IMG/VR virus record: IMGVR_UViG_3300037109_000027
Coordinates: 1-29,361 of that record
Length of the DNA stretch: 29,361 nucleotides
DNA from: a virus
Reading direction: 5' to 3' (one strand)
Part shown: positions 4,754-17,219 of the stretch, piece by piece
How the letters are laid out: every line of letters begins with the position of its first letter
Position numbering within the stretch: position 1 is the first letter of the stretch
Position numbers and translations under genes: made by a program
The notes under the pieces: generated by a model
Told to the model about the DNA's origin: nothing
Seen by the model: the letters and a program-made list of their open reading frames with translations, nothing else
Database searches by the model: none

Positions 4754-4954
4754 TTATAAATCCTCAATTCCATATCTATTATAATGCCTTTGTAGAAATC
4801 TATTTCCATGAACTTGTTTTGTTAATGCACCTAAATGTTCTGAAAATAATCTTCTTTTAAGATCTACAGAACTTCCAATATACTCTGTGTTTTTACAAAG
4901 TGATTTAATTAAATAAATACCTGAAGAATGTATTATTTTAGTTCTTGTTATCAT
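4754..4954 (-). CDS. Truncated GIY-YIG endonuclease ORF downstream of the polymerase
   Basis: A 66-residue GIY-YIG domain fragment. SGIYLIKS and NTEYIGSS provide the two signature strands, LKRRLFSEHL holds the expected Arg and His, and RFLQRHYNRYGIEDL fits the next helix. The ORF stops just before the strand that normally carries the catalytic Glu, and no DNA-binding region follows, so it looks inactive. I chose the ATG at 4954, directly after the polymerase stop; an upstream ATG at 4987 would lie inside the polymerase gene. The element probably derives from a free-standing or intronic homing endonuclease. Confidence 0.75.
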   Translation of the reverse strand: MITRTKIIHSSGIYLIKSLCKNTEYIGSSVDLKRRLFSEHLGALTKQVHGNRFLQRHYNRYGIEDL

Positions 4955-4955
4955 C

Positions 4956-6341
4956 TTAAATCTCTTTCTTTTCACTCCAAGGTGCATTTATTGGAGCAAG
5001 GGCCATATCTACAACCATTGGGGTTAGGATCCAAGGAAAGTGTTCTGCTAACCTAACAGTTGTTATCTCTTGTGCTGTATCTATTATATGTTCTCTTTCG
5101 TCAGGATGTACATCAAGAATAACAGAGTCGTGGATTTGATTTACTAATCTTGTATCCCACTTCTCTTTTCTCATCCTAGCATCAAGTTGTATAAAGGACC
5201 ACAATAAACAATGGAATGCAGTACCCTGTCCTGGATAGTTACAAACTTGTTTCCTATCCATTACACCGTTACATCTGAATCCTGTTAATAGATCAAAGTA
5301 ACCATATTTTTTATATTGTGAGTACCATTTGTCTTTCCAATCAGAGTAAACCGTAAACCTTTTATGCCAAAAATCATCCTCAATTACTTTTAGATGTTTC
5401 TCAAATTTAAGAAATGAACCTAACCCTACACTTATAAGATGATCAGCTAATGTTCCTTCTGGCATTGGGATTCCTTGTCCTGAATGAAACCTTCCTTGAG
5501 GTAATTTCCCCCAGTTACAGAGTAGATTGCCTGAACAATGTTTATAATAATCTCCATAAAACTCAGGAAATATAAAACCGTTTTTAGTAGCTTGTCTTAA
5601 TCTATAATGCTCCTTTATATGTTTATCAAAGTTCTTAACCTTAAAGAGTTGTTTTGCAACATCAGCATGCATATCCTTTGTAGGATCACTTACATACTTA
5701 ATAAGATTTGGGTCTTTATTATAACAACAATTAATTGAAACCTCAATTCCCTTGAAATCAATCTCAAGTAGCTGATGTCCTGGACGTGGAAGAATTGCTC
5801 CTCTACATATCTGCATAGATTCCTCATCTCTTGCAGGTATATTATGTAAATTCGGATGGTCTGAACTAGACCTAAATGATACAGCTAAATTGAGATTTAG
5901 ATTTGTATGAACATATCCGTCTACTTGTTCTCTAAGAAAGGATTCTAAGTATGTATCCCTAACCTTTTTAAGCTTACGGATTTGAAGTAAGTTCTCAAGT
6001 TCAGGAATGCTCATCTGTCTTAATGTTTCATCATCTGTAGATCCTAATCCTGACTCTGTTTCCTTTTCAATCTTTAATCCTTTTATCTTATAAAGGAAGT
6101 TCTTTAACTGAGGATCTGAGTGTATATTAATCTTACCTCTTACTGAGTGCTGCCAGTGTTTAAAAAGATTAGTATCTTTAAATTCCCTTTCCAGTCTCTC
6201 CATCTTACGTGTAATGGTTTCCATCTTCTTATTAACATACTCAAAATCTATTCTAATACCTTGTCGTTCCGCACGAGCAAATGCTAATATACCATCATGG
6301 AATAGGTGGTATGCATCTATTGTATTTGGATTTATATTCAT
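4956..6341 (-). CDS. Family A DNA polymerase, polymerase domain only
   Basis: A 461-residue polymerase module without exonuclease. Motif A is LEIDFKGIE (residues 192-200, Asp195). Motif B spans YRLRQATKNGFIFPEFYG (246-263) with Arg and Lys of the O-helix. Motif C is NQIHDSVILDV (401-411), a phage variant in which HDE is HDS. The conserved SSDHPNLHNIPAR segment is at 159-171. It resembles the C-terminal half of SPO1-type polymerases. The matching 3'-5' exonuclease is in the separate upstream gene (6493-7749), with a GIY-YIG ORF between them, so the polymerase is split but both parts look intact. The two proteins probably assemble to act as the replicative polymerase. Confidence 0.88.
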   Translation of the reverse strand: MNINPNTIDAYHLFHDGILAFARAERQGIRIDFEYVNKKMETITRKMERLEREFKDTNLFKHWQHSVRGKINIHSDPQLKNFLYKIKGLKIEKETESGLGSTDDETLRQMSIPELENLLQIRKLKKVRDTYLESFLREQVDGYVHTNLNLNLAVSFRSSSDHPNLHNIPARDEESMQICRGAILPRPGHQLLEIDFKGIEVSINCCYNKDPNLIKYVSDPTKDMHADVAKQLFKVKNFDKHIKEHYRLRQATKNGFIFPEFYGDYYKHCSGNLLCNWGKLPQGRFHSGQGIPMPEGTLADHLISVGLGSFLKFEKHLKVIEDDFWHKRFTVYSDWKDKWYSQYKKYGYFDLLTGFRCNGVMDRKQVCNYPGQGTAFHCLLWSFIQLDARMRKEKWDTRLVNQIHDSVILDVHPDEREHIIDTAQEITTVRLAEHFPWILTPMVVDMALAPINAPWSEKKEI

Positions 6342-6490
6342 AAAATTGCTTTTACGTGAAATTCATTCATCCTTTTATATCTTTTTTTTGCAGCATCATT
6401 ATGACTTTTTAATCTAGCTGTTAATGTTCTTTCAGTCTTTCCTATATAAATCTTATTATTTACAATATTTATAATTTTATAGATAATCAT
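6338..6490 (-). CDS. Short GIY-YIG endonuclease fragment between exonuclease and polymerase ORFs
   Basis: A 50-residue ORF with IYKIINIVNNKIYIGKTERT and LTARLKSHN, which match the N-terminal GIY-YIG strands and the following Arg helix. The rest of the domain, including the catalytic Glu and any DNA-binding part, is missing. Its stop overlaps the polymerase start (ATGA, 6341-6338), and it begins directly after the UDG-exonuclease stop, filling the gap exactly. It looks like the remnant of a homing element that separated one polymerase gene into two. Confidence 0.72.
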   Translation of the reverse strand: MIIYKIINIVNNKIYIGKTERTLTARLKSHNDAAKKRYKRMNEFHVKAIL

Positions 6491-6492
6491 AA

Positions 6493-7749
6493 TTAAAATG
6501 GAAGTTGACTTTCCTCTATTAGATTTTGTTGGATGATGCTGAGCCGCATTTCATTAATACTATCGTATCCGCAGTATTTTAACAGTTTAGATTTCCCTTC
6601 TGGTTTAGCTACTAATTCAAGAATCCTATTTAAACTGTTACCGTTCTTTTTATCTATAGACTCAAGATAAGGAGCTATTTCACTAGCATAATCTACAATG
6701 CCAAAATTAACATAGGTTAAAAACTTTAATCCTGATGCACCTCTCCTATTATCAATTATATGTGCTGCTTGCATTGTATCCCATAGCCATCCTTGTACTT
6801 CTGTCCTTAAACGAACAGCACTCCAAGTATCCTCAAACTTCATATTCGCTGCTATCTTCCTGACACTTTCATCCTTTATAAGATCCTTAAACGGACGTCG
6901 ACCTTCTTTAGTTTTAGGCATCATAAATACATAAACATGATTAGGTCCTGTAGCAATAGAGCAACAGACAATCTTATGTCCTACTCCGTGAGGTTTCAAT
7001 CCAGTTGTCTCATAATCAAATGCTATTTTAGAACCAATTTTAATGTCATAAAGTACATCTAAGTCTGTTATAACTTCAATTTTAGGTTCCTGATATATAG
7101 GAAAGGGTTTCTTTCTACATTCAATAGCTTGTTTTAGATCATCTACCCAGATTGTTTCCTCAGCACTTCTTCCGTCAAAGTTGTATGGATTGTTTTTAGC
7201 ACGTTCTACATAACTAGGATGAAATGTTGGGCATAGCCAAGTTTTAAAGTCTTGATCAGGTATTTGCCATCCTCTCCACTTTGTTATGCCTCCTAAGTCG
7301 TTCTTCCATCTATTGCCTAGAAGGCTATAAATCGCAGTATTGCCAAACAGTACAATAACCTTAGGCTTACACTCGTTTACAAGTTTTACCAATGATCTGC
7401 GGCAGCATTCAGCCTCAAAGTTAGTAGGAGCCCTGTTAGCTCCTTTTGTATCCATTGGACGACATAGAACAGCATTGACATTAAGACAATCCTCAAACAA
7501 GTCAATACCTAGTTCTGCATAGGTTCTTTGTAACAGTTTACCTACCTTACCTTGCCATGGTTTACCTCTTAAGTCTTCAACCTCTCCTGGAGCTTCACCT
7601 ATATTAAGTATCTTCTTCTTAAAGTTACCGAATGGTTTTATTCTAGGGCTCTTACAATCCCTATATAAACCACAGGCAGCGCAAGAATACTTCTTACCGT
7701 CTGGTCTAGACTTTGAGGCTGTTTCCTTCTTTGTAAAGAATCCTTCCAT
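6493..7749 (-). CDS. Fused uracil-DNA glycosylase (family 4-like) and DEDDy 3'-5' exonuclease
   Basis: A 418-residue two-domain protein. Residues 20-210 form a family 4-type uracil-DNA glycosylase: Cys23, Cys26 and Cys96 with other cysteines as Fe-S candidates, motif GEAPG at 51-55 and FHPSY at 176-180. Residues 225-418 are a polymerase-type proofreading exonuclease: FDYETTG (Asp245, Glu247), NMKFED (to Asp307), and KYCGYD (Tyr392, Asp396). Together with the polymerase ORF downstream it has about 880 residues, near the size of SPO1-type phage polymerases, so it is probably the detached N-terminal half. The start at 7749 overlaps the clamp stop (TAATG); an ATG at 7782 lies inside the clamp gene. 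Confidence 0.85.
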   Translation of the reverse strand: MEGFFTKKETASKSRPDGKKYSCAACGLYRDCKSPRIKPFGNFKKKILNIGEAPGEVEDLRGKPWQGKVGKLLQRTYAELGIDLFEDCLNVNAVLCRPMDTKGANRAPTNFEAECCRRSLVKLVNECKPKVIVLFGNTAIYSLLGNRWKNDLGGITKWRGWQIPDQDFKTWLCPTFHPSYVERAKNNPYNFDGRSAEETIWVDDLKQAIECRKKPFPIYQEPKIEVITDLDVLYDIKIGSKIAFDYETTGLKPHGVGHKIVCCSIATGPNHVYVFMMPKTKEGRRPFKDLIKDESVRKIAANMKFEDTWSAVRLRTEVQGWLWDTMQAAHIIDNRRGASGLKFLTYVNFGIVDYASEIAPYLESIDKKNGNSLNRILELVAKPEGKSKLLKYCGYDSINEMRLSIIQQNLIEESQLPF

Positions 7750-8765
7750 TAATCGTTTCTTAGACGTGCTATATAAACCCAACCTTCTCCTTCAAACTTC
7801 AATTTATTCTCTGTCAACTCACAAGCATTTGTTTCAGATAAAATACTCCTTAACAAATATGGAGTGATATTGAATGTGATTGAAGTACCTTCATATTTCA
7901 TAGGAACTTCTTCTTCAAACCATCCTGAGTCTGCTTCAGAGGATATTATAAGTTTACCTTTCTCTAATGTTATTGTAATAGACTCATCTAACACATGATC
8001 CCTTTTAGCAAACACACCTGCTCTGTCTAAAACAGAATCAATTATCTTAGGTAAAATAAGTCTTACACCTTTTACATTCAACATCTTTGCTGTCTTAGGA
8101 AACTCATCCTCAAGTACTCTACAAGAAATGATTGTACCTTGAACTGTTTTAAAATGAACCCATCCTTTCCCTTCTGCAATCTTTGTAGGTTTAAGTCTGA
8201 GCATATCTATTACCGATCCTGCAGGAATTAAGAAAGTCTCTATTGGCATTTCCTCTCCTAACTCGCATCTCGTTATTCTTTGATTGTCTGATGCCTCAAG
8301 GAATCCTTGTTGATTGACATGTACACTTTTTAATATAGGATCATTATTTGATGTTGTACAGGATGACACAGCAAATGCCATAAACTTGAGGAATGTAGAA
8401 GGTAATAAAAACCATTTACCATGTTGTGTTACTTCCTCTTCGTCTAATGGAAGTTTAATTTCTTGATGTAATGTCAGTCCAGCATGAGATCTACCTGATG
8501 TGATAAGTATTTCTTTCTTATCAATTGTTAGCTCAACTTCTTCCTTTTTAATCTTAGCAAGGAAGGCATACAGTCTGTCAGCCTTAACAGCTCCTTCTAA
8601 TTCCAATCCTTTTATAGGATGTGAGATACTAATCTCATCATTGTAGGTTACAACTCTGCCTGACATAAATGCAAAGGATGTTGATTGTTCTATCAACTCC
8701 TTATTTGCTAAACCAGGCTTTACAATCTCCAATGCATTTTGTAATTCAATCTTGTTTACTTTCAT
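7749..8765 (-). CDS. DNA sliding clamp, DnaN-like
   Basis: A 338-residue beta-rich protein matching divergent phage beta clamps. The recognisable parts are VRLILPKIIDSVLDRAG, an EKGKLIISSEADSGWFEEEVP segment similar to the third domain of DnaN, and ITFNITPYLLRSIL followed by a C-terminal strand (VYIARLRND). It should encircle DNA and tether the polymerase encoded immediately downstream, loaded by the AAA+ protein at 3623-4537. The gene lies between an unknown gene and the polymerase halves, with a TAATG overlap to the latter. Sequence divergence leaves some uncertainty. Confidence 0.75.
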   Translation of the reverse strand: MKVNKIELQNALEIVKPGLANKELIEQSTSFAFMSGRVVTYNDEISISHPIKGLELEGAVKADRLYAFLAKIKKEEVELTIDKKEILITSGRSHAGLTLHQEIKLPLDEEEVTQHGKWFLLPSTFLKFMAFAVSSCTTSNNDPILKSVHVNQQGFLEASDNQRITRCELGEEMPIETFLIPAGSVIDMLRLKPTKIAEGKGWVHFKTVQGTIISCRVLEDEFPKTAKMLNVKGVRLILPKIIDSVLDRAGVFAKRDHVLDESITITLEKGKLIISSEADSGWFEEEVPMKYEGTSITFNITPYLLRSILSETNACELTENKLKFEGEGWVYIARLRND

Positions 8766-9482: not shown

Positions 9483-10481
9483 TTACTTTTTTAGATTGAT
9501 AACATGCTCAAGATTTCCTTTATAAAAGAAGGATTGGAGTCTTCCTTTTAACTTTGTAATCTCAGGATCCGTTACACCTTTCCAAAACACTTCTTCTTCC
9601 TTCTTAGACAAGGATCCTGCAAAATAGAATGTTAAGTATTCCTCAGCGTCTTTTTTAGCTTTCCTAGTTTTAAAGTTCCAAGGAAAAGCTGGTACATTCC
9701 TTTGTATCTGTTCTGAGAATGTGATATAATTCCATATAACTCTTTGAATGATACTATCGCTTAATATATCTATGGTTAATCCTAACCTGTTTGCTCTCCG
9801 TTCCAATTCCTTTATTACTCCCGATGTTAATCGATCTTTAAGAGCAATGTCTCGAGATGAGACTTGAATTGTCTTAAGTTTCTCAGAGCTATATTCAGGT
9901 AATGTAATCCAACCATACATAGCAAGTTTCCTACATGTTGCACTATCTACCGAGTACCAAGGGTAACGAGTCATTAAAGGAATCGCCGTACAGGCAAAGC
10001 CGTGTACCCTTACTTTAGGAAATCCGTCCTTGTCAAGTATATGCTCCTTCCATATCTTATCTAACCAGGGAATAAGAACGCTTGTCGGGTTAGGTACAAG
10101 TCCTCCTAGTGCAATGTAGTCGTAAGAGTCAATCATAGCATCTAGCCACTTTGTATCACTGCCTAAATGGAAGACTGGTATAGGTGTTAATCCAGCTTTC
10201 TCAAGGATTAATTGATTTTTCCAAGTTAACTCAGGATTATTAATAACATCCAAATTAGAATAGAAATCTATCGTCCCTTCATTAGCCTTTATAAACTTAA
10301 TAAAGTCTTTTCTATATTGTAAGTATTCAGGAGTCTCAGTATAGGAAAAATCATCATATTTCCTTTCTGAGAACTTTGTTCCCATGATTCCTTTATGTGC
10401 TGTTTTCCTAGACAGTTTATTGTATAGAGAAGGGGCTCCACAGTCTGCAAAGATTTTGTAATCAAACGGATTCTTTTTCAT
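9483..10481 (-). CDS. dpdA: DpdA-like guanine transglycosylase (7-deazaguanine insertion in DNA)
   Basis: A 332-residue TGT-superfamily protein. FADCGAPSLYNKL (Asp13 at the N-terminus) corresponds to the first catalytic Asp of transglycosylases. YIALGGLVPNP (122-132) fits the GG motif, VHGFACTAIP (159-168) the HGFG-like motif, and YSVDSATC (176-183) the second catalytic Asp. The C-terminal zinc module of bacterial tRNA TGT is absent, as in phage DpdA. DpdA enzymes swap guanine in DNA for a 7-deazaguanine base, protecting phage DNA from restriction. FolE, QueD and QueE genes upstream make the base precursor. Its start overlaps the glycosyltransferase end by 20 nt. The DpdA subfamily is not determined. 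Confidence 0.87.
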   Translation of the reverse strand: MKKNPFDYKIFADCGAPSLYNKLSRKTAHKGIMGTKFSERKYDDFSYTETPEYLQYRKDFIKFIKANEGTIDFYSNLDVINNPELTWKNQLILEKAGLTPIPVFHLGSDTKWLDAMIDSYDYIALGGLVPNPTSVLIPWLDKIWKEHILDKDGFPKVRVHGFACTAIPLMTRYPWYSVDSATCRKLAMYGWITLPEYSSEKLKTIQVSSRDIALKDRLTSGVIKELERRANRLGLTIDILSDSIIQRVIWNYITFSEQIQRNVPAFPWNFKTRKAKKDAEEYLTFYFAGSLSKKEEEVFWKGVTDPEITKLKGRLQSFFYKGNLEHVINLKK

Positions 10482-11511
10482 TTACTAATTGTTTAATTTG
10501 ATAGATCATTTTTGGTATTGCCCTTCTTCCCTTCTCTAAGATGTCTAATTGCAACATATTGAGTTCTTGGTAATCCTTGTCATGTCCCATCATAAAATGA
10601 ATAATCATCTTTTTAGCCTGAGCTAAATTACTGTCATTATATGTGTATGTAGGAGGGTACATTTCAGAATAACTTAATCTGTTAGGCACAACAGGAAAAC
10701 ATCCATATAAAACAGCTTCCTGCATTGCAATACCCCAAGTCTCTTGTTTAGAGCAAGAAACAGCAACTTTTGCTCTACCTAATAAGTCATAATACTCTGC
10801 CTTTGTTTTACATTCTTCCTTTGTCTTTAACCATTTCCATCCCATCATTTCCGATTCCTCTCTGCACATCTCATGCAAGGCATCAAATTGATCAGGACAT
10901 TTCTCTGAATCAAGTCTGTGAGGAAATACAATTATGTTTTCTTTCTTTGTTGATATTGAAGATACAAAATCAGGGTATATTGGAAACCCTGTTACAATAA
11001 CCTTGGTTGGATGGACTGCAACGGTTTTACAAAGTAAAAGTTTATGAAAATCTGTTGCCACATAGATTTGATTAACAATAGAACCAAACCAAGCATCTTC
11101 TATAGGCTCTGCCCAATCATGCATTCCTTGTTTAGCTAAGAAGTCGTTTGGGTCATAACTTCCTGCATGCAAACATCCTACAATCTTAAGATTGGTTAAC
11201 CCTAACCCGTCTCTTATATAAGCTATAGTTGTTAAACCAGGATCCCAAAGATCGTAATAAAACAATACAAGAGGTTCTTTATTGTCGTATTTAGACAATA
11301 TTTTAATAAGTTCTTCCAACTGTGATACTTTATATTGATGTGTTTCCACAACATCTAAAAAAGATCCTTTATTAATCTTTCCTGAGGTAGGAATTCCATA
11401 AACATGTGAGGCATTTAAACCGCCTTCATGAAATGCTTTAGTTATCCATCTGTCCCATTGAATGGAATATCGTTCCTCTAAAGGTTCGATCGGAATTAAA
11501 ATTACTTTCAT
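10462..11511 (-). CDS. GT-B fold glycosyltransferase in the 7-deazaguanine cluster
   Basis: A 349-residue protein with a C-terminal GT4-type domain. FPHRLDSEK (196-204) fits the start of the second Rossmann domain, and ETWGIAMQEAVLYG (257-270) the E-x7-E nucleotide-sugar motif, followed by CFPVVPNRLSYSEMYP. The N-terminal half is Rossmann-like (MKVILIPIEP at the start; LVLFYYDLWDPGL). It should transfer a sugar from an NDP-sugar, acceptor unknown. Its end overlaps dpdA by 20 nt, so the two are likely coupled. DNA base glycosylation is an attractive but unproven role; host surface or protein glycosylation is also possible. No signal peptide or membrane segment is seen. Confidence 0.8.
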   Translation of the reverse strand: MKVILIPIEPLEERYSIQWDRWITKAFHEGGLNASHVYGIPTSGKINKGSFLDVVETHQYKVSQLEELIKILSKYDNKEPLVLFYYDLWDPGLTTIAYIRDGLGLTNLKIVGCLHAGSYDPNDFLAKQGMHDWAEPIEDAWFGSIVNQIYVATDFHKLLLCKTVAVHPTKVIVTGFPIYPDFVSSISTKKENIIVFPHRLDSEKCPDQFDALHEMCREESEMMGWKWLKTKEECKTKAEYYDLLGRAKVAVSCSKQETWGIAMQEAVLYGCFPVVPNRLSYSEMYPPTYTYNDSNLAQAKKMIIHFMMGHDKDYQELNMLQLDILEKGRRAIPKMIYQIKQLVNEKESV

Positions 11512-11533
11512 GTGATTAATGAATTAGTGAATA

Positions 11534-12898
11534 TTATCTTATTACATCAAATCTTGCGAGTATAGCAAAGCCTATAACAGTTTGCATTTGTTTGAACATA
11601 GGTATATAATCAAAAGAACGTACTAAGTCCTCAAGTCTTATGCCTGTCTTAATGCATGCAGGACGAAAGTCCTCTACATTTATGTTATATAGCTCTAAGT
11701 AAGGAACCGCAGACTCAAAGTTCTCAGGATGAACTTCAGTAATTACATCTAGCAGTAAGGAATTTGGGATATAACTAGGCAATAACCTCACTGGACGTTC
11801 TGTTATGAAATGTCCTTTATTATACAACGTCTTATAAATTGCTGTACCGTGATATGGTTGAAAGAATTGTCCTAGCCCTCCTTTGGTTCCGTTTGTACGT
11901 AATCTGCCTACAACATCCTTCATATCAAATCCATACTGTTGCATAAACTTTCCTGTATCATTTAAAGACTTAATATTCTCTCCTGGGAAGAATGTTTGTA
12001 CTAACCAGAATATATCGAAAGGATATAGATGTTGATTAATTGCTAGATGTTGACAATCTAATAAGGATTTACCTACTCCCATGCTTTGTGAGACATCTTC
12101 AGATCCAGATTCAAAACCAATCTCAATTACTTCTAATCCTGCCTTCTTAATAACTTCTGTTCCGTATTTATCTATAAAATCCCAAACAGCTTTTGCAGAT
12201 CCTAGAGCAATTAAATGAAATCCTAAGTCTTCTATATCATTAAGAATCCAATAAGCTCGATCAATATCAAAAAAGAAATCCTCATCAGTAAAGTGAATAT
12301 TTTTTATATTATTTACAAGACAATATCTGAGCATTAATTTAACATCACTTTGTGGAAGTTCAATTCTTGTCTTTTCACAGTTTCTTGTTGAAGGACAAAA
12401 TGCACATCCGTTAGGACATCCATAAGAAGTAAATAAAGGATAAACCTTTTCACCTTTGTTGAGATGTTTAAGGTGCATATCACAATCGCTGAGTAATAAA
12501 CGATAAAGGTTTTTATAGTTCTTTGGATAAGCTCTCATCGCCATACTAAGAAAGTCTTTATCTATTAAAGGATTAAATCCTAATACCTCTTCACAGTTTC
12601 TCAAACCTAATTCTTTTATCAATGGACTATATCCTATAAAGTAGACATTATCTTTACCAAATTGGAAGGGTAACATCTGTGCTAATAACATTGCACATTC
12701 TATCTGAGGATAGGACCAAAGTGTAACAATGTGAGCATCCGCATCAGGAATCTTATCTATATCCTCAGGCTGAAATGCTTCCATAAAGAATACATCTTCT
12801 TTTATCTCTTTTAATCCGTTATAAAGAAGATAAGGAGCATAACAGAAACTTCCTCTGTTGAACTCTGTACTTGTTGAATCTATTATATTAATTTTCAT
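11534..12898 (-). CDS. Radical-SAM enzyme with N-terminal Rossmann-like domain
   Basis: A 454-residue protein. CPNGCAFC (Cys161, Cys165, Cys168) is a CX3CX2C radical-SAM Fe-S motif preceded by FTSYG. EIGFESGSEDVSQSMGVGK fits the strand and helix that follow in Elp3/MiaB-type barrels. The first 125 residues look like a Rossmann or B12-binding-like domain, but I see no DxHxxG cobalamin motif. Radical-SAM enzymes of this layout modify nucleosides, lipids or small molecules. I chose ATG 12898; an ATG at 12940 would overlap the QueD-like gene by 53 nt. The gene sits between a QueD-like gene and the glycosyltransferase, so modification of the 7-deazaguanine or its sugar is a reasonable inference. 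Confidence 0.8.
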   Translation of the reverse strand: MKINIIDSTSTEFNRGSFCYAPYLLYNGLKEIKEDVFFMEAFQPEDIDKIPDADAHIVTLWSYPQIECAMLLAQMLPFQFGKDNVYFIGYSPLIKELGLRNCEEVLGFNPLIDKDFLSMAMRAYPKNYKNLYRLLLSDCDMHLKHLNKGEKVYPLFTSYGCPNGCAFCPSTRNCEKTRIELPQSDVKLMLRYCLVNNIKNIHFTDEDFFFDIDRAYWILNDIEDLGFHLIALGSAKAVWDFIDKYGTEVIKKAGLEVIEIGFESGSEDVSQSMGVGKSLLDCQHLAINQHLYPFDIFWLVQTFFPGENIKSLNDTGKFMQQYGFDMKDVVGRLRTNGTKGGLGQFFQPYHGTAIYKTLYNKGHFITERPVRLLPSYIPNSLLLDVITEVHPENFESAVPYLELYNINVEDFRPACIKTGIRLEDLVRSFDYIPMFKQMQTVIGFAILARFDVIR

Positions 12899-13217
12899 AA
12901 ACTTCGGCTCCGTTTTCGTTATCCTCAAAGACAGATACATAAATTGCAGAAAAGGCTTTTAATAAATATTCTGCAAGTCCTTCACAAGACATTTGATCCA
13001 TTGCTCCGTCTGGGAATTTGGATAGTAATAAATCATTCAATTGATGTTTTAATTTAATAAACTCCACATCCCTGTCATTATGTTTAACAGGTATTTTTAA
13101 TTCTATATGAAATAAATGCCTATGTGGGTATTTTAGATAATTAACTTCAGGAACATCACAATTCCTCCAAGAATGAATTCCTTCGAAGATTGTTCTAACT
13201 ATAACATTTGTTCTCAT
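12888..13217 (-). CDS. QueD/PTPS-family paralog lacking the catalytic cysteine
   Basis: A 109-residue T-fold protein of the 6-pyruvoyl/6-carboxy-tetrahydropterin synthase type. Zinc ligands His15 (EGIHSW), His32 and His34 (PHRHLFH) are kept, and SCEGLAEYLL (77-86) matches the PTAENLA helix of QueD. The catalytic Cys, four residues before the HxH pair in QueD, is Leu28 here, and the DH pair is also missing. It therefore probably does not make 6-carboxytetrahydropterin; the other gene (16839-17219) does. A derivative role such as CDG decarboxylation (the predicted DpdL step) is possible, but I cannot confirm that DpdL has this fold. Start overlaps the folE stop (ATGA). Confidence 0.75.
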   Translation of the reverse strand: MRTNVIVRTIFEGIHSWRNCDVPEVNYLKYPHRHLFHIELKIPVKHNDRDVEFIKLKHQLNDLLLSKFPDGAMDQMSCEGLAEYLLKAFSAIYVSVFEDNENGAEVYEN

Positions 13218-13771
13218 TTTAACATAGATAATAATTCCATTTTAATTGACGGATCTTCTAAAAATACTCCTTTTAATGAGAATGTTTTCATTATGGAGTT
13301 TTGTTTATTACATCCACGAGCACACATGCAAAAATGACGTGCTTCTATAAAACAAGCAGCACCTTTTGGTTTTAGATGTGTCATTAAAGCCTCAGTAACC
13401 TGTTCACTTATTCGTTCCTGGATTTGTAATCTACGAGCGTATATATCTACAAGACGTGCTAATTTAGAAATACCTATCACATGTTTGTCTGGAAGATATG
13501 CGACATGTGCCTTACCATAGAAAGTTATCATATGGTGTTCACAAGAACTGTACATTTCGACATCTTGTAAAAGAACAATCTGGTTATAGGTTCCCTTCTC
13601 AAAGACGGTTAGAATATCTTTGGGATCTTGCCCATAACCAGAATATAGTTCTTTCCAAGATTTAAGAACCCGAGCGGGGGTGTCTTTTAGTCCTTCCCGC
13701 TCAGGATCCTCACCAATCCACTCTAATTGTTTTTTAATTAGAGCTTCGGTAATTGAATTAATTTCAAACAT
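13214..13771 (-). CDS. folE: GTP cyclohydrolase I, FolE
   Basis: A 185-residue FolE with the full motif set: SSCEHHM (Cys77, His79, His80), HVIGISKLARLVDIYARRLQ, QERISEQV and HFCMCARG (Cys148). Cys77, His80 and Cys148 fit the zinc site. It converts GTP to 7,8-dihydroneopterin triphosphate, the first step of the 7-deazaguanine pathway. Length and motifs are normal, so activity is likely. It lies between an acidic protein gene and a QueD paralog, and its stop overlaps the latter's start. Together with QueD and QueE it would make CDG independently of the host. Confidence 0.93.
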   Translation of the reverse strand: MFEINSITEALIKKQLEWIGEDPEREGLKDTPARVLKSWKELYSGYGQDPKDILTVFEKGTYNQIVLLQDVEMYSSCEHHMITFYGKAHVAYLPDKHVIGISKLARLVDIYARRLQIQERISEQVTEALMTHLKPKGAACFIEARHFCMCARGCNKQNSIMKTFSLKGVFLEDPSIKMELLSMLK

Positions 13772-13777
13772 CCCCGG

Positions 13778-14782
13778 TTACTTCTTTACCTTTTTGACAG
13801 GTGCTTTGTCTTTGGCAATCTTCATGTAAGTATCAATTCTCTTCTGAATGAAGGCCATGTCAGTGATGTCTTTTTTCTCTTTGTATGCCTTAACAAATTC
13901 CTTTTTGATGGTAGCTTTGTCTGCTCCTTCTTTGAGAAGTTTGTCAGCAATGTCCTGCATAGAAGGACCGTTCTTTACAAAAGGATTCGGTTTCTTTTTC
14001 CCGTCAGTAGCTTTTGCTTTCTTTGCCGGTTTCTCATCTTCTTCCTCTTCTTCCTCTTCTTCGTCTTCAACAGGAGCCTTGTGTCCTTTTACATCATTGA
14101 CTTTCTTGTCTGCGATGTTCTTTTTGTGACCTTTTTCGGCAACTTCCTGCTGTTCTTCTTCTTCGTCTTCAATCAGGCCGGACATTTCTTCATAAAGTTC
14201 AGAGGCTTTCTTGAAAGAGTGCAGACGTTTTTTGATCGATTTGAATTCGACATTGTCCTCAGCAATACTCTTCAATACTTTGAGATCTTTCTTGTTTTCG
14301 TCGAGCTGATCTCTTAATGAAGTCTCTTCTTCCTCTTCCTCTTCTTCTTCATCTTCTTCCTCATCATCGGTATCGTCGTCATCATCTTCTTCCTCTTCCT
14401 CTTCTTCCTCAACTTCGACTTTTTTACCTTTCTTTCCCTTTTTTACCGGGACTTCTTCTTCCTCTTCTTCTCCCTCTTCGGCATCATTACCGTCTTCGTC
14501 CTCATCCTCTTCTTCGACATCCTCAACATCATCATCTTCCTCTTCTTCTTCTACAGGAGCTTTCTTTCCTTTCTTACCGGCAGGAGGATTCAATGCTGTG
14601 ATTACTTCAGTGGTAACTTCTGTAAACTCATCTTCCTTAGGGTTAATAAGTTTAATAGCTTCCATGACCTTTTCAGTCAATTCCTTGTCACCTAATTTGA
14701 CATTAATCGGAGGTTTAATTCCGAGAACTTCATTGAGTTCCTTTGCGGCTGTCCGCAACTTTTTTGCATCAATTTTGCTCAT
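13778..14782 (-). CDS. Highly acidic low-complexity protein in the modification island
   Basis: A 334-residue protein. The N-terminal 70 residues (with LRTAAKELNEVLGIKPPI) and a C-terminal segment (MQDIADKLLKEGADKATIKK) look like two ordered helical domains. Between them lie long Glu/Asp runs broken by Lys/Gly patches such as KKGKKGKK. The region reads as more G/C-rich than its neighbours. The acidic stretches could mimic DNA or bind basic proteins; this is inference. A run of 91 non-coding bases lies upstream, so it may start its own transcript. I recognise no family. Confidence 0.7.
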   Translation of the reverse strand: MSKIDAKKLRTAAKELNEVLGIKPPINVKLGDKELTEKVMEAIKLINPKEDEFTEVTTEVITALNPPAGKKGKKAPVEEEEEDDDVEDVEEEDEDEDGNDAEEGEEEEEEVPVKKGKKGKKVEVEEEEEEEEDDDDDTDDEEEDEEEEEEEEETSLRDQLDENKKDLKVLKSIAEDNVEFKSIKKRLHSFKKASELYEEMSGLIEDEEEEQQEVAEKGHKKNIADKKVNDVKGHKAPVEDEEEEEEEEDEKPAKKAKATDGKKKPNPFVKNGPSMQDIADKLLKEGADKATIKKEFVKAYKEKKDITDMAFIQKRIDTYMKIAKDKAPVKKVKK

Positions 14783-14873
14783 TTTTGATTAAATTTAATT
14801 GTGAAACAATAAAAATATATATAATAATGTGAAATAATATTCCGTCTGTAAGAACATTATACGATAATTTATT
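14783..14873. other. AT-rich intergenic gap between queE and the acidic protein gene
   Basis: 91 bases, very A/T-rich, with a run of TA repeats (tatatataata). A promoter for the acidic gene would fit here, but I see no exact TAnnTTTG box and no terminator-like hairpin. Confidence 0.4.
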
Positions 14874-16655
14874 TTAGCAACCTACCGTCTTGTCCCAGAG
14901 GATTATATGGAGTCTGTCTGAGTAACGCACACCATGTTGAATAGCCATGTTAACAACCATCTCTCGTTTCTTGAGTAAGTCCATTCTTGTACATCCTTCT
15001 GGCATTAGAATAACTTGTTCCTTCTTGATTAGCCCTGGTTCTAAGAAATCCATTTGTATCTCTTCCCAATCCTCTTCACAGTCTACAACAAATTTAAACC
15101 ATGAATTACAGAAACTGGACAATGTCATTAACACATCAGGTTTGTATCTATCCTTTTTAGGAACTCCGCTGCTTGATAATTTAGGAGAGTTATTCCAGCA
15201 ATCAACATTATGTGCAAAATAAGTCTTAGGCATTATTACACACTCATTCTCAATCTCTATAAAAGGAGAGAAATTAAATCTATCAATAAAATACCTTACA
15301 AAGTTATACAATCGTTGTTGCTGTAATAAAGGACTTCCTCCAGTTAATACAAGGTGCATTTCTTTGTCCTCTAACTTCTTAATCAAAGATCCTGTGTTCA
15401 TTAATGTGAGAATTTGTTCAAAGTTAAATGGACTTCCAACTCTCCACACCTCAGTTGTATCGCAATTATGAACTAATATACGATTTGCAAGATATGTAGG
15501 ATATGGAGTGCAAGAAAGATTGTAAACCTCTGTCTTAGTAACATCAGAGGAACCAAATAATCTTGCATAGGATTTTGAAGGAATATTTGTTGTTATATCC
15601 GTAATAATGGAGCCATTAAATACAAAATCAAATAATTTTTCTTGCAATCTGTCCTCTTCTTTTAGATCTTTTTCTGTTAAGAACAAAACATCATATCCAA
15701 ATTGTTTGTAATGTTGTAGCCTATTCCACTCATAGTCTCCTCTTTTTCTATATCCTGTTTTAGCATACCAAGGAAATGTTGTATTATATATTTCAATTAT
15801 CTTTTTCTTCCCATCTATAATAAAATCCGGAAATCTGTATCCTGTTTTTCTATTACCAATTGCTAATTTATTATCCCCTATATATGTAATAGGTAGTTCC
15901 TTTCTTTGAAATATCTTTTCATATCTTTTTTCTAAAGAACTCTTAGACTTCCAATGTCCTAACATACTTCTTTTAGCAACTTCAGGATCCTTCATTGGAT
16001 TTTTGTCTCCTTTCATTCCTAATGATAATCCAAGTCGTAATTCCTCAGATCTTGTATATGGAGTAATCTCTCCAGATTTTATTCTAGCTTTATATGTATT
16101 ACTCATTTTCTTTCGTGTTCTTTTATGCTTCATAGGATTAAATTTTGTCATCTTATATGAAACAACCTGAGACCCTAATAAAGATATTAAAATATCACCT
16201 TTTTGTAGTTCTCCTGCTTTAATCCATCCTTTTTCTTTTACATAGATTTTATGATTTTTTGTAAGGACTAGTGGATGATCTGTTTTATAATCTATTACAA
16301 TTTTTAGCATTTGTTCTTTAATATCCACAATTCTTTTCATTGTTTCTTTAACAGTGGTTTGAACAATGTTTTTATGTTTATCCAAGGTAAGAAGAACTTC
16401 CCCTTTTTGAATGTCCTTAATTTTCTTAAGACCTCCTTCTAAGGTTTGAATTAAGGTATTTTCATGAAAGCAATAAACACAATCTAAGGTACATTGTTGT
16501 AAACGAAGGAAACAAGCGGGAAATCCTGCATATATTCCTTCTCCTTGAATTGTATCATAAAAGAACTCGGAGATATTTAGATAATTCTCTCCATCCTTTT
16601 GAAAGATACTTCTTGTAGCATGTACATCCGCAGAAATGATTTGTTTTATTATCAT
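14874..16655 (-). CDS. queE: 7-carboxy-7-deazaguanine synthase QueE, interrupted by an intein
   Basis: A 593-codon ORF. Residues 1-61 and 398-593 form a QueE of 257 residues when joined; residues 62-397 are an intein. The joined protein reads QQCTLDCVY-CDTTEVW, restoring the CX3CX2C radical-SAM motif, with FYDTIQGEG upstream and LVLTGGSPLL downstream, as in QueE. QueE converts 6-carboxytetrahydropterin to CDG using SAM and an Fe-S cluster. The intein sits exactly at the third cluster cysteine, so activity depends on splicing. The start overlaps the stop of the membrane-protein gene (ATGA, 16655-16652). Confidence 0.93.
   Translation of the reverse strand: MIIKQIISADVHATRSIFQKDGENYLNISEFFYDTIQGEGIYAGFPACFLRLQQCTLDCVYCFHENTLIQTLEGGLKKIKDIQKGEVLLTLDKHKNIVQTTVKETMKRIVDIKEQMLKIVIDYKTDHPLVLTKNHKIYVKEKGWIKAGELQKGDILISLLGSQVVSYKMTKFNPMKHKRTRKKMSNTYKARIKSGEITPYTRSEELRLGLSLGMKGDKNPMKDPEVAKRSMLGHWKSKSSLEKRYEKIFQRKELPITYIGDNKLAIGNRKTGYRFPDFIIDGKKKIIEIYNTTFPWYAKTGYRKRGDYEWNRLQHYKQFGYDVLFLTEKDLKEEDRLQEKLFDFVFNGSIITDITTNIPSKSYARLFGSSDVTKTEVYNLSCTPYPTYLANRILVHNCDTTEVWRVGSPFNFEQILTLMNTGSLIKKLEDKEMHLVLTGGSPLLQQQRLYNFVRYFIDRFNFSPFIEIENECVIMPKTYFAHNVDCWNNSPKLSSSGVPKKDRYKPDVLMTLSSFCNSWFKFVVDCEEDWEEIQMDFLEPGLIKKEQVILMPEGCTRMDLLKKREMVVNMAIQHGVRYSDRLHIILWDKTVGC
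15465..16472 (-). mobile_element. Intein in QueE with a Vsr-like homing endonuclease domain
   Basis: 336 residues from Cys62 (CFHENTL) to Asn397 (ILVHN), followed by the extein Cys398. The first block has Cys1 and a Hint-fold beginning; a block B-like region is TDHPLVLTKNH (residues 125-135), and the C-terminal blocks are VYNLSCTPYP and NRILVHN. All residues needed for standard Cys/His-Asn/Cys splicing are present. The central part has a NUMOD3-like stretch (GDKNPMKDPEVAKRSM) and then a nuclease-like segment with YRFPDFIIDGKKKIIEIYN and FGYDVLFLTEKDL, similar to Vsr-type or PD-(D/E)XK homing nucleases. No LAGLIDADG or HNH motif is seen. Confidence 0.85.
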
Positions 16656-16855
16656 AATGAAACTATTTTGTTTATAATGTAATTAACATACAAGCCTAAA
16701 ACAACGGCTGACACAATAAAAGATCCTATGATTGCCAGCCCACAATATGTTTTAAATAGTGTTACTATTGTAAGTAACATAAGGCCGACATCTGTAAGAC
16801 AAATAAGTATCATCAAAGATACTATTATCCCTATTATTTTAAATAATCGTTTCAT
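16652..16855 (-). CDS. Small membrane protein between queD and queE
   Basis: A 67-residue protein with two predicted transmembrane segments: residues 4-30 (IIGIIVSLMILICLTDVGLM) and about 40-60 (GLAIIGSFIVSAVVLGLYV). I chose ATG 16855, which overlaps the queD end by 17 nt; an ATG at 16897 would lie further inside queD. Its stop overlaps the queE start. No family recognised. A membrane protein within the queD-queE pair is unexpected and could be incidental; transport of a precursor is one speculative idea. Confidence 0.6.
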   Translation of the reverse strand: MKRLFKIIGIIVSLMILICLTDVGLMLLTIVTLFKTYCGLAIIGSFIVSAVVLGLYVNYIINKIVSL

Positions 16856-17219
16856 CGTGATTCGGTACATAACGGGCATTCGTTTTAGGTGTTTCACTTA
16901 CTTCTACAGCAGTCATTTGAGGGAATCTCAATTGAAACAGGTTAAAGATATATTTTGCAAGATTCTCTGCTGTTGGATTTAGATTAGGAGGTAACACTTC
17001 ATTAAGACAACGATGATCAAAGTTCTCATCTATTATCTTTTTAACTTCATTCAGTTCATTATAATCCTTCACAAAGCCTACTTTATCAAGTTTTAACGAA
17101 CTTAATTCGATCTTAACGGTATAGGTGTGTCCGTGTAATCTAGAACATTTATGCTCTGCTGGTAATCCTTCTAACCTATGAGCAGCATCGAATGTAAATA
17201 GTTTTGAAATTGTGTACAT
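16839..17219 (-). CDS. queD: 6-carboxytetrahydropterin synthase QueD
   Basis: A 126-residue QueD. FTFDAAHRL (His14) and CSRLHGHTY (Cys25, His29, His31) give the catalytic Cys and zinc ligands; FDHRCLN (Asp68, His69) and NPTAENLAKY (Glu86) complete the site, with VEVSETPKTNARY as the C-terminal substrate motif. It makes 6-carboxy-5,6,7,8-tetrahydropterin from FolE's product. Residues and length are canonical, so it should be active. It precedes the membrane gene and queE, with a 17-nt overlap into the membrane gene. Contrast with the cysteine-less paralog at 12888-13217. Confidence 0.93.
   Translation of the reverse strand: MYTISKLFTFDAAHRLEGLPAEHKCSRLHGHTYTVKIELSSLKLDKVGFVKDYNELNEVKKIIDENFDHRCLNEVLPPNLNPTAENLAKYIFNLFQLRFPQMTAVEVSETPKTNARYVPNHDETII

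Follow-up and report, generated by a model that had tools for sequence, protein, structure and literature searches.

A virus record of 29,361 bases (IMG/VR record IMGVR_UViG_3300037109_000027, hereafter the window, which is possibly a fragment) carries on its minus strand, at positions 9483-17219, a cassette of 7-deazaguanine genes transcribed in the order QueD, a small open reading frame (ORF), QueE, an acidic protein, FolE, a 109-residue protein termed QueD2, a radical S-adenosylmethionine (SAM) enzyme, a glycosyltransferase (GT) and a DpdA-like transglycosylase (Table 1). The cassette is interpreted here as a phage DNA hypermodification operon making a sugar-bearing 7-deazaguanine in DNA, the sugar being remodelled by the radical SAM enzyme, an assignment that we consider probably, if only just, correct. 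Adjacent ORFs overlap by a few bases at the FolE–QueD2, QueD2–radical SAM and GT–DpdA boundaries, and therefore appear to be translationally coupled; the small ORF between QueD and QueE has no counterparts among relatives. A previous sequence-only reading had listed FolE, QueD, QueE and a DpdA-like protein in this interval and reported no QueC, and profile searches bear out both statements (Table 1; PF06508 for QueC), the lack of QueC being conserved in relatives. Its inventory was incomplete, having passed over QueD2, the radical SAM enzyme and the GT, and its description of the key residues as intact applies to QueD, in which motifs CSRLHGH and FDHRCLN are preserved, but less well to QueE, which is split by a 336-residue intein and predicted to work only after splicing. 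The SAM-binding GGEP motif of QueE also reads GGSP, as it does in its closest relatives and in phiST.

Table 1 Features of the cassette, in order of position (positions in the window).
Feature	Position	Strand	Supporting match or remark
DpdA-like DNA-guanine transglycosylase	9483..10481	-	phrog_887, E=2e-40
DpdA C-terminal segment FAG...SFFY, residues 284-332	9486..9632	-	
GT4-like retaining glycosyltransferase	10462..11511	-	Pfam Glycos_transf_1, below cut-off
Radical SAM enzyme, type 1	11534..12898	-	ORF opens at 12940, likely start 12898; N-terminal Rossmann-like domain
QueD2, QueD paralogue, 109 residues	12888..13217	-	phrog_17812
FolE (GTP cyclohydrolase I)	13214..13771	-	NCBIfam NF006825, 238 bits, over cut-off
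Acidic low-complexity protein, between QueE and FolE	13778..14782	-	
QueE (7-carboxy-7-deazaguanine synthase), intein-interrupted; exteins of 61 + 196 residues	14874..16655	-	phrog_2076, E=8e-44
Intein, 336 residues, QueE residues 62-397	15465..16472	-	Pfam Hint/PT-HINT/Intein_splicing, NCBIfam intein_Cterm
QueD (6-carboxytetrahydropterin synthase)	16839..17219	-	TIGR03367, 96 bits, over cut-off; retains the catalytic Cys, the Asp-His and the zinc motif HGH

FolE, QueD and QueE yield 7-carboxy-7-deazaguanine (CDG) (PMC13329287, PMC6884629). Neither QueC nor Gat-QueC, either of which would place the cassette on the preQ0/archaeosine branch, was found in the window record, whose lack of QueC proves little by itself since the record may be a fragment; relatives of 61-167 kb without QueC are stronger evidence. 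QueC (PF06508) was missing in all of the first six related records, in the 20 records of the radical SAM clade and in 28 of 29 further GT-bearing records. Including the window, it was absent from 53 of 54 distinct records and from 20 of 21 records of at least 60 kb, a set in which completeness is not certified and some members nearly duplicate others. In each search at least 12 of the 14 named control genomes were positive, with phage 9g scoring 191 bits. The single exception, contig G051/L110, holds a cassette in the order FolE-GT-radical SAM-DpdA-QueC (L110:168-4654) with a QueC of 220 bits, and no QueD2 was found anywhere in this 86.5-kb record; QueD2 and QueC therefore look like alternatives at the CDG branch point. 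A phosphoribosyltransferase-like ORF follows QueC in that cassette. Ten of the 12 cultured phages with QueD2 gave no QueC match, the other two being a partial match in Vibrio phage D479 and a sub-threshold one in X1, with control phage 9g positive. Because the lack of QueC appears real and conserved, preQ0, preQ1 and archaeosine are unlikely products.

QueD2 is related to QueD in profile–profile comparison (hhalign, E=4e-6 over 106 columns) and matches PDB entry 2dj6 (E=0.002), hypothetical protein PH0634, a PTPS/QueD-like protein. An alignment of 31 sequences retains the histidine triad of the zinc site (H15, H32, H34) together with E98 and S77-C78-E79, whereas the catalytic Cys and the Asp-His of QueD are not conserved across it, setting the protein apart from QueD. 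QueD2 was found in 27 phage records, among them phiST, where the homologue lies near FolE; its alignment is too weakly conserved to serve for a scan of the collection. We infer that QueD2 consumes CDG in place of QueC, with decarboxylation as the simplest reaction for a zinc protein retaining the presumed pterin-binding Glu without the acid/base residues.

Searches of IMG/VR with a profile of the window's radical SAM enzyme (type 1) returned 27 loci, approximately 20 of them distinct, on divergent contigs, and the order QueD-QueE-FolE-QueD2-radical SAM-GT-DpdA is kept in every one that extends far enough. The GT profile returned 62 loci, nearly all of which, where they extend far enough, also carry QueE, QueD2 and DpdA. 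Cassettes without the type-1 enzyme usually hold a different radical SAM gene (type 2): among 47 distinct GT cassettes, 25 have type 1, 16 have type 2 (the calls in L089 and L101 resting on weak scores), 6 have neither and none has both. The absence of overlap compares with 8.5 cassettes expected under independence (P=5e-8), a value that assumes independent cassettes although the contigs include related ones; the two most similar GTs are 67% identical. Neither radical SAM type was seen in these cassettes without GT, for type 2 by construction, as its loci were located through GT, and GT was seen without either. A single acquisition of the type-1 gene in evolution was rejected: on the GT tree the type-1 label has to change four times or more, and the gene has therefore been repeatedly gained or lost.

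The predicted structure of the type-1 enzyme (predicted local distance difference test (pLDDT) 89.6) has as its nearest solved structure AprD4 bound to paromamine (Z 22.6, root-mean-square deviation 3.4 over 365 residues), the next family reaching 18.5. Matches to CysS, TsrM and MgmA follow at Z of approximately 18. The cluster motif CxxxCxxC (C161/C165/C168) is kept in 21 sequences and is shared with AprD4; identity to AprD4 is only about 15%, no AprD3 partner was identified, and the score against the AprD4 family model (NF033070) is 24.5 bits against a cut-off of 500, so that the modelled likeness is one of fold. Relatives of the enzyme were not found in cultured phages at E 1e-5, and bacterial genomes gave weak ones only. 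The type-2 enzyme, a protein of related phages that is not in the window, has conserved C-terminal cysteines and matches BtrN best in the PDB (E=3e-18), then MoaA and cytosylglucuronate decarboxylase. BtrN, the butirosin radical SAM dehydrogenase, oxidises a cyclitol. The reaction of AprD4, the radical SAM diol dehydratase in the apramycin pathway, takes place on a sugar ring (PMC5461906). A protein distantly resembling type 2 (24% identity) occurs in Campylobacter phages OP654737, MW074125 and MW373745, and is annotated as BtrN in one of them.

The GT is modelled (pLDDT 91.6) with a GT-B fold. Its closest match is BshA (Z 27.3), and further GT4 enzymes, MshA among them, score slightly lower; identity to BshA and MshA is about 12%. 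The EX7E motif, common to these enzymes (E257/E265), and the donor-site residues R199 and E203-K204 are invariant in 20 sequences, and this combination of predicted fold and motifs points to a GT4 enzyme. Two tetrahydrobiopterin glucosyltransferases are among the fold matches, below the top ranks.

The intein lies directly before the third Cys of the QueE CxxxCxxC motif (junction ...CTLDCVY/CDTTEVW...), such that the +1 splicing residue is the third cluster cysteine itself. It has Cys1, the block B Thr and His, the C-terminal His-Asn and the +1 Cys, and is inserted within a conserved motif, a combination from which splicing is predicted. Because the intein splits the radical SAM cluster motif, QueE is expected to be inactive until spliced. 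A central insert in the Hint domain is likely to be an endonuclease. Seventeen QueE sequences of related cassettes align across the insertion point and none carries an insert there. In contig L083 (604-2250) an intein with an HNH nuclease occupies the same QueE site; the site is therefore a recurrent insertion point. Near relatives of the window's intein were not found among phage records.

DpdA exchanges guanine for a 7-deazaguanine in DNA (PMC6884629). The window's DpdA-like protein is approximately 35% identical to phage 9g DpdA in hidden Markov model and hhalign alignments, which identifies it as a homologue; its profile gave chance matches only against PDB sequences. In the window and its near relatives the DCGA motif is found at residue 13, with the FAG...SFFY segment at the C terminus, whereas in L107, L110 and L021 an xFAG...SYY strand segment opens the sequence some 50 residues ahead of DSGA/DCGA, as a similar segment does in 9g. 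In many other relatives an xFAG...LxSFYY segment forms a separate small ORF just downstream of DpdA, sometimes as three or four paralogues (the comparison including L019, L025-L031, L071, L078, L082, L084, L087 and L111). To judge from these sequences, this looks like circular permutation combined with gene fission of the first element of the barrel. In the cultured phages Paride, ACP17, BUCT-ZZ01, X1 and Phosso (L008, L009, L010, L037 and L038), GT adjoins QueD2, with one gene between them in X1. The proteins beside GT/QueD2 there (540 residues in Paride; phrog_10773 in ACP17 and BUCT-ZZ01) may be divergent transglycosylases; as DpdA of the present type, phrog_10773 and the phiST and Paride neighbours were rejected, having no profile match to it, though the X1 protein is annotated as queuine tRNA-ribosyltransferase.

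Gene content and order, their conservation, fold and motif identities, the mutual exclusion of the two radical SAM types and the QueC/QueD2 exchange in one contig were computed here, and from them we infer the reactions, the order of steps, the structure of the base, the sugar and its acceptor atom. FolE, QueD and spliced QueE would make CDG, which QueD2, as a QueD-derived zinc enzyme, would take instead of QueC for decarboxylation or another one-step change. DpdA would swap guanines of the phage DNA for the 7-deazaguanine base, to which the GT4 enzyme would add a sugar before or after insertion. The radical SAM enzyme would then alter that sugar, by dehydration or deoxygenation if it is AprD4-like, or by oxidation where related phages have the BtrN-like enzyme, and the finished base would hide virion DNA from restriction enzymes. 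The sugar is proposed as the substrate for three reasons: two radical SAM families substitute for one another in the cassette; the closest characterised relatives of both work on carbinols of sugars or cyclitols; and neither type was seen in these cassettes without GT (for type 2 by construction). A pathway halting at CDG, as the sequence-only reading had it, is unlikely, since QueD2, the radical SAM enzyme and GT4 are conserved in the operon with DpdA; among the products then proposed (dCDG, its decarboxylated form or another derivative), the last was the better choice.

Several observations weigh against a remodelled sugar on the base. CDG and 7-deazaguanine lack an ordinary hydroxyl acceptor, leaving the sugar-taking atom unexplained; the sugar might be ester-linked to the carboxylate, form a C-glycoside at C7 or sit on a group that the radical SAM enzyme installs. 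The six GT cassettes with no recognised radical SAM gene include that of L063, sister to the window and L001. In the cultured jumbo phages with GT and QueD2, neither radical SAM type was found nearby and DpdA of this type was not detected. L110 pairs GT and radical SAM with QueC, so these two are independent of QueD2, and the type-1 enzyme also resembles the cobalamin methyltransferases CysS and TsrM, which makes C-methylation a possibility. Nucleoside analyses of these phages were not found.

The resemblance to CysS and TsrM underlies a reading that makes the radical SAM enzyme a methyltransferase of the cobalamin type, modifying the base so as to create or protect the GT acceptor. It would ease the problem of the missing acceptor and agrees with NCBIfam matches to B12-binding radical SAM P-methyltransferases as well as with the fold matches to CysS, TsrM and MgmA at Z 18; as AprD4 is nearer in sequence and fold, and the alternative type-2 enzyme is BtrN-like and no methyltransferase, we think this unlikely. 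About equally unlikely is a base that is plain CDG or its decarboxylated form (dCDG/dDG), with GT and radical SAM serving other functions and merely travelling with the operon. QueC is absent, phiST, MA9V-3, Bakedbeans and others have QueD2 but no GT, and dCDG and dDG were reportedly found in phage DNA in 2023 by Cui et al. (in NAR). That work is also said to have described DpdL as a CDG decarboxylase. Cellulophaga phages count among the QueC-less 7-deazaguanine phages, which have the lack of QueC in common with the window. Yet GT and, usually, one of the two radical SAM types are part of the operon itself and overlap or adjoin DpdA in dozens of divergent contigs, and passengers would not be retained and swapped so regularly.

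Two further schemes seem less probable still. A host QueC might turn phage-made CDG into preQ0 and DpdA insert dPreQ0, much as phage 9g DpdA expressed alone in Escherichia coli inserted host preQ0 (PMC6884629); QueD2, however, is present in the cassette wherever QueC is not, and the sole cassette with QueC lacks it, which points to phage-encoded use of CDG and makes a host contribution of this kind improbable. That the GT glycosylates a pterin intermediate, the operon yielding a glycosylated pterin and DNA modification being a separate output, is very improbable: FolE, QueD and QueD2 have pterin-handling folds and biopterin glucosyltransferases occur among the GT fold matches, but these rank below the best matches, GT4 enzymes have similar folds, and GT is consistently accompanied by DpdA and QueE.

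The cassette sits within a replication module, with a DnaB-like helicase upstream and a beta-clamp-like protein, a uracil-DNA glycosylase–exonuclease protein, a family A polymerase, a clamp loader and RecA downstream. In the region 4754-7782 a uracil-DNA glycosylase domain is joined to the 3'-5' exonuclease portion of a DNA polymerase of family A. That polymerase, a single 934-residue ORF in L001, is here divided between two ORFs (6493-7782 and 4956-6341), and short ORFs resembling GIY-YIG endonucleases lie between and behind them; no known RNA family (for example, a group I intron) was found in the window. The acidic low-complexity protein has a recognisable N-terminal segment, and equivalents lie in or beside the cassettes of most relatives, between QueE and FolE or just upstream of QueD.

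The DpdA pathways that make dPreQ0 or dG+ (9g, CAjan and Rosebush; Hutinet 2019, PMC6884629) share with the window FolE, QueD, QueE, a related DpdA and their clustering, but have QueC or Gat-QueC where the window's cassette has QueD2, plus GT and radical SAM. For Mycobacterium phage Bipper, with which the window shares the absence of QueC, the possibility of CDG in the DNA of a QueC-less phage had been put forward in 2019 (PMC6884629). phiST resembles the window in its QueD2 homologue near FolE, but no GT or tailoring radical SAM gene was found beside QueD2 and its candidate transglycosylase is different. Sugar-bearing 7-deazaguanines are known in tRNA as mannosyl- and galactosyl-queuosine; the former, a glycosylated 7-deazaguanine derivative (PMC8654956, PMC12518689), is a functional analogy, with its sugar in tRNA where DNA is proposed here. 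Glycosylated phage DNA is represented by glucosyl-hydroxymethylcytosine in T4 (PMC13216743) and a cytosine pentose in phage Thanatos (PMC12838424), which likewise set a sugar on a modified base against restriction, but on cytosine rather than 7-deazaguanine. No report of glycosylated 7-deazaguanine in DNA was found in a literature search made largely without subscription papers.

The seven-gene set probably swaps guanines for a modified base and then adds an enzymatically altered sugar, a disguise of DNA not yet described, and there is a fair chance that this variant of phage 7-deazaguanine DNA modification produces a new, sugar-bearing DNA base. More tentatively, and with rather more doubt than belief, the product could be a DNA base of a new class, a 7-deazaguanine bearing a sugar that, once attached, is remodelled by either of two interchangeable radical SAM enzymes (AprD4-like or BtrN-like). 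It would be made on a branch that bypasses QueC and uses a paralogue of QueD to consume CDG. The wide distribution of an operon with DpdA, GT and usually a sugar-type radical SAM enzyme makes the idea testable, including in the cultured Paride/PA5oct group, X1, ACP17, Phosso and BUCT-ZZ01. If true, it would be a chemically rich form of phage DNA protection and would suggest substrates for orphan radical SAM enzymes.

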